NCBI GenBank assembly: GCA_019188255.1
Contig: JAETXT010000008.1
Coordinates: forward strand, 2,046,001-2,110,000
Length of the DNA: 64,000 bases
DNA from: Verticillium longisporum
Taxonomy: Eukaryota > Ascomycota > Sordariomycetes > Glomerellales > Plectosphaerellaceae
Direction of reading: 5' to 3'
In this document: in pieces, positions 43,457 through 58,400 of the stretch
Layout of the letters: every line of letters starts with the position of its first letter
Position numbering within the stretch: the stretch's first letter is position 1
Translations under genes and position numbers: made by a program
Notes under the pieces: model-generated
The model's input: only the letters and a program-made list of their open reading frames with translations
Told to the model about the DNA's origin: nothing
Databases searched by the model: none

Positions 43457-44743
43457 TCAGCTCTTGGCGTACGTCGCACGAATGCGACTTGTCAAGTGTT
43501 CGTGGCTCGTCACAGGTGCGGCGCTGGCGTACCCCTTGCGCTTGAGGACGTCAAGGAACCCTGCATCGACAACAGCGGGCTGTCCCTCGGAAGTCCCTCC
43601 GTTTACCCCTATCGGGGCCAACACAACATTGCGGTCAGGCTGGATGAAGACGGGGATGCTCAGTCTTGCCACGTTCTCCTTAGCGCTGCGCGGGAACGCC
43701 ACCCTGTGGACGGTTGACCGCAGCCGTCCTGCGGTCCAAAACTCCAGGGCGTCGCCGATATTGACGACGATCGCATTGGGTAGACACGGCACATCGATCC
43801 ATATCGGCCCAGCCGAGTCATCCTGGCGAAGAACCTGGAGACCGCCTTGATCCGAGGGTTGGCGGAATAACAGAGTTAGCGACCCATAGTCGGAATGTGC
43901 GCCCGCACGAATGTCACCGCTGTCGTCATTGACAGCATCTCGTATCGGCGACTCGCAGGGGACAGCGGGATAGTTGATTAGTCGCATGCGGCAGCTCTCG
44001 CCCGTGTGAGCCTTGGAAAGATAATCCTGGGGCACCTGGCGGAGAGAGTCATGAATGTCAGGGATTCAAGCATTGGAGGGGACAGGGGCCTGTCACTTAC
44101 CCCCAGTCCTATAGCCAGGGCTTTCAGGAGTTTCTTGGCCAGTGCATCACAGTCATGAAAGAAGTCGGCCAGCTGCTCGCGGTGGCGGTCGAGTCGTGGA
44201 GGCAGTGGCTGCTGTGACGTGCCGGGGTCTGCGAGATAGAATGATTCCTTGACATCACCGGGTCCTTTCCCCGAGAGCCTCCAATATCCAACAAATGTCA
44301 GTTTCGACAGTCTCGCTTGCATGCACGGGCGGAATCTGTCAACGCGAGGCTTACGTTTCTTCCCTCATGCCTGTATAGCCCTGCAGCAAGGGAAACGGGG
44401 GGCTGCTGTCAGCTAACTGTCACATTCAATTCCAGGGAAACCAAAACGAACCCTCCCCCGAGACGTAGTAGTGAAGTTACAAGATTCAGAATGATAGTGC
44501 ATGCAGAGGCAAACTCACAAGATCACCGCTCCCGTTCCCATAGGCCAGCTTCTCCTCCGCAGGTGCATCGAAGAAGTGCTTCGCCAGTCTGAAGACATGC
44601 GACGCAACGTCGTCACCGAGGTCGTGGCCTACCACGTAGAAGAAGCCCGGGTTTCTTCCCACGCGCATGAGCTCGGCGCCCAGGTCCTCTGCCGAAGCGA
44701 AGGACGCCAAGTCGACGATCGGTAGCGCAGCGCCCACGCCCAT
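43457..44743 (-). CDS. 2-oxoglutarate/Fe(II)-dependent oxygenase (isopenicillin N synthase-like)
   Basis: Non-haem iron oxygenase with a DIOX_N domain and a 2OG-FeII domain. Exons 44519-44743, 44355-44380, 44101-44278 and 43457-44035 join in phase to 335 aa. The iron ligands are His190, Asp192 (RAGAHSDYGSLTLLF) and His253 (STVHRV). Arg267 and Ser269 (ARLSIP) are the 2-oxoglutarate RxS pair. The second exon is a 26 nt microexon coding GYTGMREE, required to complete the usual GY-x-G motif. Length and motifs fit the group that includes thymine hydroxylase and many secondary-metabolism oxygenases. The substrate cannot be told. An NCS1 nucleobase-type permease and a Zn2Cys6 regulator flank it, so a role in pyrimidine use is one possibility. 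Confidence 0.9.
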
Positions 44744-47077
44744 GGTGACGGGCGTTGCTTTTCTCTGAAGGTTGGGAGAGGGCGTTTGGGTTCGTCCCGT
44801 GCGTCGGGGTGACGGGCGGGCGGTGGTGGTGGTGGTGCAGGCTGCTGGGGTGGTGTTAAAGCGATCGGCAGTGCTTTTGACTGATTGCGAGCGGAGGACG
44901 GCAGTTGGTGGTTTTTTTCCCTGTGTTGGGGGGGGTGTATGTGTGTGCGTCTGTGGTACTGTTTCTCTGCGATGGTCAAGCAAAACAGGTATTTGATGGG
45001 GAGGGGGGGTTTGTTATTCCCGGCATGGGATGCGTAAGGTACACCGAGACGGAGACGGGCTTGGATTAGACTGGGATTGGGGGGGAGGGTGCTGTTGGGA
45101 CACCGACGACGATCATACGGGGGGAGGGGAGGGGAGCAAGGGAATATGTTTCTTCTTGCGGAAGCGATGAAAAAGAGAAAATGCGCTCAACACCCCATGA
45201 GGGCAAACAGAGTGCGGTATGCTTCTTTTCTATGTCTACAATGATCGCGGCCTGGCCCGACGGGCGATTTCAGATCCCTTCCCTCTTCCGCCAGTCCGTC
45301 TGCGACCCCGCGCGCCGTGCCGCGATGAACGCCCCTCGTGGATGAGCTGTTTTGCAGTGTTTTTGCGTGTTTAAGCTGGTAAACGGCTGGTGAAGCGGTT
45401 GAATTCATGCCGCTCGAGGTGGGTGGAGGCCACGCATCCGTCGCGAGACAGGTAGACCCTCTGGGTAATCAACGGGGACGGGTGCCCGGGAGACAGATGG
45501 TGAACGTGAGCAGTGTGTCAACGCTTGAGCACGTCAAAGTCGAACTCGTGCAGGTGGGTGTGGTGGTCTCGCCTCGTTATCCTTGGCGGCCGACTGTGCC
45601 CAGCCTGTTTTCCTGTTTCTGACTGGGTCGGAGCAACCCCCGGCTCTGCTTCTCTGAAGACTAATAAAGAGAGGGGGATTGATTGTGGGATGGTGTACCC
45701 ACGTCATCACTGACTCGACGGAACCTTCTGATTTCTTTGAGCACAATAGTAGCGCTGGGCTCCGTTGGGTTGGCGGGTGTGATGGCGTCTGGCCCAAGCG
45801 AACCTTGCGCGTGGCGGTGGCCCCAATAGTGCTCATCCCTCAGAGCGAGGGATGCCCTTTGGGCCGGGGTTGGAGCGGGTGTTGATGGCGCTATCTAGCT
45901 GGTGGGTGTCATGAGCTGGGAGAGCGAATGGGTGGCCCTCGAGCCCGTGCTATAGGACCATTCCCGGGGGGGACATGATTCAAAGGCGCCGTGGCTGCCG
46001 GTAGATACGACAAGTCATGTCGTGGTAGCAGTTGAGGCCGCTTGGTCAAGGCGTGGGAAACGGGGTCTTGTCTCACCGGTCTTGCAGTAGCCTCTATAGC
46101 TCGAGCCTCTTTCGGCATCCGCTGCAGGTGATAGAGTGCTGAAAGAGACGAGCAGCTTGCGAGCCTTGTTGGCATTGGGAAATGATCGCCCCGTCTTCTT
46201 CTTTGATCATCAGGGCCACGCATCTCAAGCTCAAGATAAACATACAACTTGGCGTTGTCCCTCGGCCGCAAAAAGAACTGCCATGCCCTAGAGAATTCAG
46301 GAACAGGGTCCTCAAAGACAGCTGCAGACGCACGCCTCGCCGAGACTGAGACCTTTCGACTTGTTGTCCATCGATCTACTAGCAGCCGTCAGCAACGGTC
46401 TTCCTCAGGAGGAGACCGCCACCCATCTCGCCTACCTCACCTTGCGAATAAGATCACCAAGTCAACGGTCTGCCACGAGGAGACCGGGGGCCTAAGGAAC
46501 CTTATCCGTTGATTCCGAACCTACCAAAACCCCAGTCTGACCCCCAACCGAAGGGCTCTAGTGTTTTCGGTATCTGTCAAGAACACCACCTCGACCGGGG
46601 ACAGGTATCGCGATTGCCAACCGCTTCCCGCCCGTCCCCTAAAAACGCCCCAGCGACTTGCTACTGGTGTTCTCTGCTGTCCGGCGGAGCTTAATTGCTC
46701 TCACCGACTTGCCGAACCGCTGTCTGCCCAGTCCAAGCCCAGCCACGCCCTACCAGGCGTTCGAACCCCGGGGCCGGGATATGACTCCATCGCCAGGGGT
46801 CGCTATCCATATTTAATCAAGCGAGTGGCCCAGTACCAAGGTATCGGGATCGCCACCAATTGTCTCGTGGGAGTTCACTGTCAACGACCGCGACGCCTAT
46901 CACGCCAAACAACTGACGACCAAACCGACTACTCCGGTGTACAGAATTGGCTGTACGAGTGGAGAGGCCTTTGGTAAGCCGGTCGATCTCACCGAGCAAT
47001 CTTTTCCATTGCGTGATTGCTCTCGCCTCTACAATCTCCTCCGACGCTCTACAAGCCAAACGGCTTCCCCTGTCATC
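44744..47077. other. 2.3 kb divergent gap
   Basis: No gene is supported. The left part is rich in G runs and GGT repeats (near 44.82 kb) and forms the upstream region of the oxygenase. The right part should be promoter and leader of the NCS1 permease. Confidence 0.4.
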
Positions 47078-52957: not shown

Positions 52958-53677
52958 TTATTTCTTGACATCGTTGCCAAGGGTGTCGACAATACCGGCC
53001 ACAGGAGGGGCAAGTCCGCCCAGACCGAGAGAAGTCAGAAGAAGGGCAACGTCGGGGGACAGATCGTTGAGAAGCTGTCGCTTCTTAACATCATTGCCGA
53101 GAGTGTCGACAATACCAGCGACAGGAGGTGCCAGTCCACCGAGACCAAGAGAGGTTAGAAGCAGGGCGACATCAGGTGAAAGGTCATTGAGAAGCTGTCG
53201 CTTCTTCACGTCGTTGCCAAGAGTATCGACAATGCCGGCGACAGGAGGGGCGAGGCCACCCAGGCCGAGAGAGGTCAAGAGGAGGGCGACATCTGGAGAC
53301 AAGTCGTTCAAAAGTTGCCGCTTCTTGACATCATTTCCAAGAGTATCGACGATGCCGGCGACAGGAGGGGCAAGCCCACCAAGACCCAGTGATGTGAGGA
53401 GGAGAGCGACATCGGGAGACAAGTCATTCAGCAACTGTCGCTTCTTGACGTTGTCGCCCAGAGTGTCGACGATAGCACCAACTGGAGGAGCAAGCCCGAC
53501 AAGTCCCAGGGACGCGAGAAGGCCAGCAACAGGAGGCGCGAGGCCCTTGAGCAGCTGGCGTGCCTCGACATCAGACTCAGAGACAGCCTCTGGAGCAGCC
53601 TCAGGCTGGGGCTCTGCAACAGGCGCAGCCATGACGCTGCCAGCGAGGACGAGTGTGATGGTGTTCGAGAAGCGCAT
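52958..53677 (-). CDS. Secreted kexin-processed repeat peptide precursor (five repeats)
   Basis: Single exon, 239 aa. Residues 1-19 form a signal peptide (MRFSNTITLVLAGSVMAAPV). An acidic propeptide follows to ESDVEAR at residue 40. Then come five 40-residue repeats, each starting QLL and ending VKKR; the last ends in KK at the stop. KKR sites fit Kex2 cleavage in the Golgi followed by Kex1 trimming, which would release 37-residue peptides with an N-terminal Gln. Repeats 2-5 are identical in protein. The mature unit has no Cys, Lys, Arg or aromatic residue, four Asp, and is rich in Leu, Gly, Val and Pro (GLGGLAPPVAGIVD). The architecture matches fungal KEP precursors and Ustilago repellents. 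The function is unknown. No UstYa-type (DUF3328) or tyrosinase neighbour is in the window, which argues against a dikaritin-type cyclic peptide. Confidence 0.85.
   Translation of the reverse strand: MRFSNTITLVLAGSVMAAPVAEPQPEAAPEAVSESDVEARQLLKGLAPPVAGLLASLGLVGLAPPVGAIVDTLGDNVKKRQLLNDLSPDVALLLTSLGLGGLAPPVAGIVDTLGNDVKKRQLLNDLSPDVALLLTSLGLGGLAPPVAGIVDTLGNDVKKRQLLNDLSPDVALLLTSLGLGGLAPPVAGIVDTLGNDVKKRQLLNDLSPDVALLLTSLGLGGLAPPVAGIVDTLGNDVKK
52961..53557 (-). repeat. 120 bp coding tandem repeat, five copies
   Basis: Five in-frame units of 120 bp inside the repeat-peptide gene (the last lacks its final codon). The two C-terminal units differ by eye at about 21 of 120 bases, all at third codon positions, while their proteins are identical. 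The first unit in translation differs in protein as well. Confidence 0.92.
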
Positions 53678-53820: not shown

Positions 53821-53827
53821 CTTTATA
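53821..53827 (-). promoter_or_regulatory. TATA box of the repeat-peptide gene
   Basis: TATAAAG on the minus strand lies about 145 bases upstream of the start codon, leaving room for a leader of roughly 110 bases, common for highly expressed secreted fungal proteins. Confidence 0.5.
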
Positions 53828-57409: not shown

Positions 57410-57418
57410 TATTTAAAG
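57410..57418 (+). promoter_or_regulatory. TATA-like box of the LPMO gene
   Basis: TATTTAAAG lies about 85-90 bases before the LPMO start codon. Confidence 0.45.
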
Positions 57419-57500
57419 TCAACGTCCCAGATCACAGCTCAGATTCAAAACAGCGCCTTGCCGTCATCCCAAGTCCCCCAAGTGCTACAGCATCGTCAAA

Positions 57501-58400
57501 ATGCCCACGATGTCTTCTCTCAGCCGATTCCTCATCCCTGCTTTGTTGGTCCATTCCCCCCTCGCTGCAGCCCACAGCCGCGTCGCCAACATCATCATCA
57601 ACGGCACATCCTATGAAGGGTTCAACGCTAAACAACCCACCAACCCACCCGTACTCGTAGCCTGGAACACGACCGTCTCCGACGACGGCTGGGTCAACTA
57701 CGAGTCCTACGCCCACCCCGACATCATCTGCCACCGCGACGCCGTGCCGGCGCGCGGCCACGCGCCCGTCGAAGCCGGCTCCACGCTCTCGGTCCAGTGG
57801 CAGGGCTACCCCGAGTCGCACAAGGGGCCCGTACTGACGTATCTCGCGCCATGCCACGGGTTCTGCGAGGATGTCGACAAGACGGCGCTCGAATTCTTCC
57901 TCATCGGAGCGCGGGGCCTCGTCGACCCGGACGGCGTGGCAGGGCCGTACCCTAGCGCGCCGGGCATCTGGGCGAGCGACGAGTTCATCAAGAATAATTC
58001 GTCGTGGGTCGTCAAGATTCCCGAGACGGTGAGGCCAGGCCACTACGTGCTCCGCCAGGAGCTCGTGGCGCTGCACTATGCGCGGATCGACGGGGTTGGG
58101 ACGCAGCATTATCCGCAGTGCGTCAACCTCGAGATCATCGGGGAGGGGGACGAGGTGCCGGAGGGGACGCCGGCCGTGGAGCTCTATGGGAAAACCGATC
58201 CGGGTCTGGTGTACGATGTTTCAAAGGAGCCGCTGTCTGCTTACTTGATTCCGGGGCCGACGTTGTGGAGCGGAGCGGAGGACGAGGTCCAGCAGACGAT
58301 GCCAGTCATTACGGGCACTGCAGAGGCGATCCCGGGTGGCGAAGATGTTGCGCCAGGCCCTATCGCCAGGGCTGAGCCGACTGATGCGTGTGTGCAGTGA
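57501..58400 (+). CDS. AA9 lytic polysaccharide monooxygenase
   Basis: Secreted copper enzyme that oxidatively cleaves cellulose or related glucans. Single exon of 299 aa (296 if the second ATG at 57510 is used). The signal peptide ends LAAA just before His25, which becomes the N-terminal His1 of the copper brace. His87 (ARGHAPV) is the second brace ligand. His192, Gln202 and Tyr204 (QHY) give the usual HxnQxY motif. Cys77 and Cys207 can form the conserved disulfide. PGHYVLRQELVALH is the typical strand pair. The C-terminus is a Pro/Gly/Glu-rich tail of about 70 residues with no cellulose-binding module. No intron, which is not rare for AA9. A TATA-like box lies upstream. Confidence 0.93.
   Translation: MPTMSSLSRFLIPALLVHSPLAAAHSRVANIIINGTSYEGFNAKQPTNPPVLVAWNTTVSDDGWVNYESYAHPDIICHRDAVPARGHAPVEAGSTLSVQWQGYPESHKGPVLTYLAPCHGFCEDVDKTALEFFLIGARGLVDPDGVAGPYPSAPGIWASDEFIKNNSSWVVKIPETVRPGHYVLRQELVALHYARIDGVGTQHYPQCVNLEIIGEGDEVPEGTPAVELYGKTDPGLVYDVSKEPLSAYLIPGPTLWSGAEDEVQQTMPVITGTAEAIPGGEDVAPGPIARAEPTDACVQ

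Follow-up and report, generated by a model that had tools for sequence, protein, structure and literature searches.

A kexin-type precursor of Verticillium longisporum that would release four identical copies of an anionic, hydrophobic 37-residue peptide with relatives in other fungi

What peptide would a short, repetitive reading frame of Verticillium longisporum release, and what might that peptide do outside the cell? The frame lies in a 64,000-nucleotide stretch of one contig, here called the window, and an earlier note made from the letters alone had placed a kexin-processed precursor at 52958..53677 without naming a strand. One uninterrupted frame, running from ATG to stop for 239 residues and requiring no intron, occupies exactly this interval on the minus strand (Table 1). 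Its translation has the layout that the note had described, with a predicted signal peptide, an acidic propeptide and five 40-residue units, and the 40-residue period is confirmed by TRF (120 bp x 4.3 copies, 80% matches). The N-terminus follows an n-h-c pattern with an A-type cut site, judged by eye, and similar starts (MRFS...AMAAP) open the Aureobasidium relatives P0004, P0009 and P0010 described below. The separation of the units by KKR, also part of the early description, holds after units 1-4; a single Arg (..DVEAR/Q) precedes unit 1, and unit 5 ends in KK and the stop. Because of this single Arg, the first release would not proceed via a canonical dibasic site. The basic sites occupy residues 78-80, 118-120, 158-160, 198-200 and 238-239, and the only basic residues elsewhere in the precursor are Arg2 of the signal peptide, R40 and K44. 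Upstream, the TATAAA box and CA/CT-rich leader are as would be expected of the promoter of an expressed gene.

Table 1. Features of the precursor locus and of its surroundings, in window positions
Feature	Position	Strand	Remark
Precursor open frame	52958..53677	minus	239 aa plus stop; intron-free reading possible; homeolog on contig C2
Predicted signal peptide, residues 1-17 (..SVMA/AP), MRFSNTITLVLAGSVMA	53627..53677	minus	boundary by eye from sequence
Acidic propeptide, residues 18-40, ending in a single Arg (DVEAR)	53558..53626	minus	sequence reading
Unit 1, divergent 37-mer QLLKGLAPPVAGLLASLGLVGLAPPVGAIVDTLGDNV	53447..53557	minus	then KKR at 53438-53446
Unit 2, 37-mer	53327..53437	minus	then KKR at 53318-53326
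Unit 3, 37-mer	53207..53317	minus	then KKR at 53198-53206
Unit 4, 37-mer	53087..53197	minus	then KKR at 53078-53086
Unit 5, 37-mer	52967..53077	minus	then KK at 52961-52966, stop
TATAAA box some 150 bp before the ATG, then CA/CT-rich leader	53822..53827	minus	identical box in the homeologous promoter; putative function
Fungal transcription factor	41.7 kb		Pfam
Non-haem dioxygenase, N-terminal fragment	44486-45013	minus	about 8 kb from the precursor, other genes between
Purine/cytosine permease	46.8-48.8 kb		Pfam
D-2-hydroxyacid dehydrogenase	51.4-52.4 kb		Pfam
AA9 (formerly GH61), ordinary secreted enzyme family	57417-58400	plus	Pfam, 192.8 bits
Alpha/beta hydrolase, weak	59.4 kb		Pfam, below cut-off

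Units 2-5 are letter for letter the same peptide, QLLNDLSPDVALLLTSLGLGGLAPPVAGIVDTLGNDV. As first described for the peptide, these four units begin with Gln, contain four Asp and lack Cys as well as aromatic and basic residues; they have a GRAVY of 0.82, a pI of 4.05 and a net charge of -4. Unit 1 also lacks aromatic residues, as do all five, and carries one Lys and two Asp. It is a variant that differs from the others at 11 of 37 residues, and the proposed "up to five copies" thus becomes four identical 37-mers and one divergent relative. The propeptide opens with a run of XA/XP dipeptides (AP-VA-EP-QP-EA-AP-EA; 53585-53626, minus strand) that does not adjoin the cores. Such dipeptides are the pattern removed by STE13-type dipeptidyl aminopeptidases.

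The locus is present twice in the 72,013,526-base, 16-contig assembly, on the contig of the window (C15) and on C2, and V. longisporum PD589 is described as an A1/D3 hybrid (PMC8406199). Diagnostic primers (PMC7278989) agree with this lineage for the genome of the window: the A1 forward primer has one perfect match, its partner lies where it would give the published product of 310 bp, and the D1 forward primer has no match. The ITS forward primer of a V. dahliae assay that amplifies A1/D3 as well (PMC3688845) has ten evenly spaced matches, and lineage A1/D3 is thus probable here. The two 3.7-kb homeologous loci share 91% DNA identity. On the 5' side identity is 91.5% over the nearest 400 bp and 89.3% over the following 1.1 kb; it is 80.9% in the 3' flank and 97.6% in the adjoining dehydrogenase region. 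The C2 copy (L002:1498-2217) keeps the open frame, and its three amino acid differences all fall within residues 1-40. Over the whole frame there are 39 nucleotide differences (dN 0.006, dS 0.196), with dN 0.034 and dS 0.067 in residues 1-40 and dN 0 and dS 0.22 in the units. None of the 32 nucleotide differences that fall within the five units of 37 codons changes a residue, an outcome with a chance of about 1e-17 if changes were independent and random. A six-frame search of the genome gave no paralog beyond the homeologous pair (10 candidates scored, 10 of 10 from the two loci).

The units within one copy repeat this pattern. Of the 37 codon positions of units 2-5, 34 vary in the window copy and 33 in the C2 copy, without a single residue change; an artefact of recent tandem duplication was rejected on the 34 silently different codons. 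Silent divergence among these units (NG86) ranges from 0.5 to 2.3, with one pair per copy not computable, and is mostly at or near saturation and hence rough; the dN of up to 0.026 that the same method returns between identical peptides is a product of counting multi-step codon changes. Because silent divergence has come so close to saturation, the array seems to predate by far the divergence of the two parents, and the peptide has apparently stayed fixed since. Selection for silent difference, avoiding recombination, could contribute to the codon divergence of the units. Homeologous units mostly retain their positional identity, the exception being a patch in unit 4 of the C2 copy that is close to unit 3 and consistent with a short gene conversion.

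The precursor proved to be no isolated oddity. Protein searches with the precursor and with profiles returned at least 28 relatives (P0002-P0029): seven from Aureobasidium (subglaciale, melanogenum, namibiae and sp. EXF-8845), one from Xylariales sp. PMI_506 and 20 from sources without an organism name. A single-protein search gave 2, a four-sequence profile 22 (E <=3.2e-7) and a nine-sequence profile 21, four of them new, the last scoring the 7995 candidates that shared most words. Many of these relatives are partial or poor gene models, and some of their chain ends are possibly not natural. Since no Verticillium entry occurs among the 28 relatives from the protein searches, the gene may be missing from the protein annotations covered.

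For comparison of the units, a hand-made pattern taking 37 residues at a fixed offset drew 40 units from the first 25 proteins. Removal of two degenerate units of P0003 and the five of P0001 left 33, which comprise 32 distinct 37-mers, all of them from the first 24 relatives and none from the window. These align without gaps on near-invariant residues: L13 and L19 are present in 32 of 32, D5, L6, S7, L17, G18, T32 and G34 in 31 of 32, and P8 is also near-invariant. All 32 carry a charge of -2 to -6 and none has a Cys; aromatic residues occur in five and basic residues in six. Extending the set to all 28 relatives, with the P0003 repeats included, gave 43 unique units, again without Cys (0/43), of charge 0 to -7. 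T32 and G34 are both placed in 32 of these 43, and the charge is -2 or lower in 35 of 43. The anionic character described at the outset is thus a property of units 2-5 and of most relatives; the two weakly charged relatives are P0026 and P0027, with unit charges between 0 and -2, and one P0026 unit is 36 residues long. No unit was recognised by the pattern in P0023, P0024, P0025 and P0029. Between one and five units are recognised per relative and spacers differ, with the basic site and the 37-residue core mostly retained. In P0021 an apparent signal peptide, KR and one 37-mer make up the chain, which stops there. P0002 of A. melanogenum, a partial gene model, joins one 37-mer unit to a PF00255 domain, which we take to be glutathione peroxidase; the fusion is probably a gene-prediction error. 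A match of P0026 to RPAP1_N (31.1 against a cut-off of 25.3 bits) was set aside as chance, its best stretch covering 20 residues (150-169) and none passing alone. The spread of the family over Aureobasidium, Xylariales and sources without an organism name suggests a general fungal role. Strict conservation, together with relatives in such distant fungi, makes it very likely that the 37-mer matters to the fungus.

How would the peptide be released? The genome contains two kexin P-domain genes (P_proprotein on C1 and C9, 68.1 and 67 bits), which are presumably homeologs; in the kexin gene L013, Peptidase_S8 (99.9 bits) is divided between two frames, and the P-domain comes after it. Signal peptidase would remove approximately residues 1-17, kexin would cut after each KKR, and the carboxypeptidase Kex1 would trim the basic residues from the released units. 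Judged from the sequence, we regard this scheme as highly probable. Its products would be four identical 37-residue peptides, each with a calculated monoisotopic mass of 3640.00, and the divergent unit 1 (3518.05), which would be released alone or still joined to the propeptide; conversion of the first Gln to pyroglutamate would lower either mass by 17.03. The relatives support a mature C-terminus at residue 37, as Kex1 trimming would give in the repeats: residue 37 of the last unit is also the final residue of the chain in 10 of the 24 relatives with a recognised unit. If P0027, whose spacing is not of the kexin kind, is left out, the figure is 9 of 23; some of the records that stop there are labelled partial. 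The 37-residue boundary is backed by these chain ends and by the Gln that follows 18 of the 31 basic junctions recognised in the relatives by an ad hoc pattern. The frame, its KKR sites, the two kexin genes and the chain ends of the relatives all argue for the kexin-processed repeat architecture originally proposed.

The predicted shape of the released peptide is simple. An AF2 model of the 37-mer, built with 17 aligned sequences, places helices at residues 7-16 and 24-36, with a confidence that is low to middling (pLDDT 65); the model of the full precursor is uninformative (pLDDT 46). In the former, the helices would begin at the conserved S7-P8-D/E9 and A23-P24-P25. Amphipathicity is moderate in segment 23-37 (moment 0.41), and segment 6-20 is uniformly hydrophobic (0.16). 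Units 2-5 reach a mean hydropathy of 1.74 over 19 residues and unit 1 one of 1.89, and 15 windows of 19 residues beyond residue 40 have a mean of at least 1.6; a pipeline for KEX2-processed repeat proteins (KEPs) that excludes transmembrane segments could have discarded the precursor. Against solved structures, the one match (E 0.17) was taken as chance.

In our favoured reading, the 37-mer would be a hydrophobic, anionic, Cys-free helix-turn-helix that, once outside the cell, would self-associate or bind surfaces of lipid or cell wall, as would be expected of a small anionic hydrophobic hairpin secreted in several copies. On hyphae or spores it would then form a coat or be surface-active, in a role like that of the Ustilago repellents. 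We put this surface or self-assembly role, which is argued by analogy, forward tentatively, as something that may well prove wrong, and the whole explanation, in which KEP processing leads to a hydrophobic helical peptide with an extracellular surface role, we likewise hold at somewhat short of even confidence. The helix-rich AF2 model gives no hint of amyloid-type strands, which speaks against such a coat, and the identity of every unit seems to exceed the demands of a coat; a receptor ligand would explain it just as well. One rival reading is a secreted signal, hormone-like or of a quorum type, sensed by the fungus itself and made in several copies as alpha-pheromones are. The identical cores of a multi-copy precursor would fit such a signal, as would the strong purifying selection, with a homeolog dN of 0 and copies invariant despite near-saturated silent sites, and the recurrent Gln after basic junctions, which could become pyroglutamate, a residue found on many confirmed Coprinopsis KEP peptides (PMC9769878). 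With 37 residues, however, the peptide exceeds the 9-24 given for alpha-type pheromones (PMC6339444), no XA/XP signature follows KKR, and the peptide is very hydrophobic; on balance we think a signal rather unlikely. We know of no receptor for the 37-mer.

A second use of a hydrophobic helix would be to insert into the membranes of competitors or hosts, as a KEP-released peptide of the candidalysin kind. The size class and precursor plan resemble those of Ece1, the predicted helices and the hydropathy maxima given above would suit insertion, and the units of two relatives carry little charge (0 to -2), but the charge of -4 in units 2-5 and of -2 or lower in most units of the relatives would be unfavourable at anionic membranes, and we consider a membrane-active peptide improbable. 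More improbable still is an effector delivered to plants in infection. V. longisporum is an allodiploid pathogen of crop plants, and 25 of the 56 KEPs with data are regulated, up or down, some of them in infection time courses (PMC6339444), yet relatives occur in Aureobasidium and in sources without an organism name, and selection between the homeologs is not diversifying but rather the reverse. A host-specific effector is disfavoured because the family is spread over fungi of different habits. Another account leaves the precursor whole: its tandem repeats would make up a secreted or membrane-associated protein, with the KKR sites as linkers. P0027, a secreted-looking protein of 303 aa, repeats the LSPEV..LGL..PVG motif in tandem but has just one dibasic site, so that in some fungi the module may function without being cut, and the 15 hydrophobic windows of the V. 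longisporum precursor would agree with a membrane-associated protein. Among the relatives, unit number and spacer vary while the basic site and 37-residue core mostly persist, and chains that end exactly at residue 37 recur, so that an uncut protein is a very doubtful account of this precursor.

The surroundings of the gene bear on whether a further modification would be expected. Pfam was applied to 20 of the 29 other frames of at least 170 aa between 41.3 and 63.6 kb, and among these 20 no tailoring partner or biosynthetic cluster was found, the dioxygenase fragment in Table 1 apart, in keeping with the remark in the earlier note that nothing nearby looks like a tailoring enzyme. UstYa (DUF3328) has at least 12 matches genome-wide, of which the sole one on the contig of the window lies at 3,249,305, 1.15 Mb from the precursor; Umemura and colleagues looked for such a gene within 15 genes of a precursor (PMC7329392). 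A dikaritin or other modified RiPP was rejected, as the core has no Tyr or other aromatic residue and no UstYa gene is nearby.

Returning to the surface reading and its broader setting, it is tempting to speculate that these proteins constitute an undescribed family of secreted 37-residue peptides across Dothideomycetes and Sordariomycetes, with precursors of one to five units, a capped helical hairpin and a general extracellular role, either as a structural coat peptide or as a general peptide hormone; we would call this proposal doubtful enough to be offered only provisionally. A unit length and some ten near-invariant residues that are kept across genera, and in this precursor residues that stay identical as codons approach saturation, suggest that the precise peptide sequence is needed. 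For this reason the 37-mer could be a good test case for unmodified, non-pheromone KEP peptides, having a defined mass and a non-Verticillium host in Aureobasidium.

How does this precursor compare with known systems? By its sequence, it reads as a KEP, with a predicted signal peptide, and it shares with those described (PMC6339444, PMC7329392) at least three near-identical repeats between KR/KK sites. Umemura and colleagues call for at least three tandem repeats of 8-100 aa between KR, KK, RK or RR (PMC7329392), and here there are five 37-residue units, four of them identical. The criteria of Le Marquer and colleagues are repeats making up at least 15% of the protein and no transmembrane segment (PMC6339444); repeats cover 62% of the precursor when the identical units are counted and 77% with all five. 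Across KEPs the repeats vary widely, and most types are limited to a single genus (PMC7329392). The 37-mer matches none of the conserved motifs printed in the text available of these two studies, which include DADAATXYV[A/V]D, YVW[G/A][G/S], SPPHKT, QKLKVD, XSDW, ustiloxin-like motifs and pheromones (PMC6339444, PMC7329392). The widely spread type G-7 includes Verticillium and mostly lacks DUF3328 (49/50) (PMC7329392); it is known to us by description and not by sequence logo, and its identity with the 37-mer family may hold or not. No Pfam family scores above its cut-off on the precursor (best DUF1659, 16.4 against 24.1 bits), and twelve sequence words from the unit and its relatives do not occur in the 5.39 million full texts covered, supplements and most subscription journals lying outside this scope. 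The available text of a study of the Aureobasidium secretome (PMC8329847), in which supernatants were concentrated over 50-kDa filters, holds nothing on the 37-mer family. The 37-residue peptide family is apparently undescribed.

Dikaritins (ustiloxin, phomopsin and asperipin) likewise come from repeat precursors with a signal peptide and kexin sites, but the core here differs from theirs in its composition and in its genomic company, and its separation from dikaritin cores in the earlier note agrees with both. That note had set the peptide apart from pheromones too. Ascomycete alpha-pheromone precursors hold several identical cores between kexin sites, as does this one, but the core of 37 residues contains no Trp or Cys and is adjoined by no STE13 signature, KKR being followed by QLL; for its length and the lack of that signature beside the core, an alpha-pheromone identity was rejected. 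An alpha-pheromone DNA motif had no match genome-wide, an uninformative control in which the real pheromone locus was not located.

Two precursors of hydrophobic peptides come closer in size. Ece1 of Candida albicans consists of several units, which cleavage at KR turns into peptides some 30-40 residues long; it features a hydrophobic helix, and its units differ among themselves. Candidalysin is a 31-residue peptide toxin; set against Ece1 by description, the units here carry a net charge of -4 and are identical. The KEP peptides released from Rep1 of U. maydis assemble into fibrils and render hyphae hydrophobic (PMC9769878, PMC3032640). The 37-mer, for its part, is anionic, predicted to be helical and identical in four copies; it is likened to the repellents by putative role and not by sequence. 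The Rep1 peptides have lengths of about 35-53 residues, and like the precursor studied here, that of the repellents yields several hydrophobic, Cys-free peptides of similar length.
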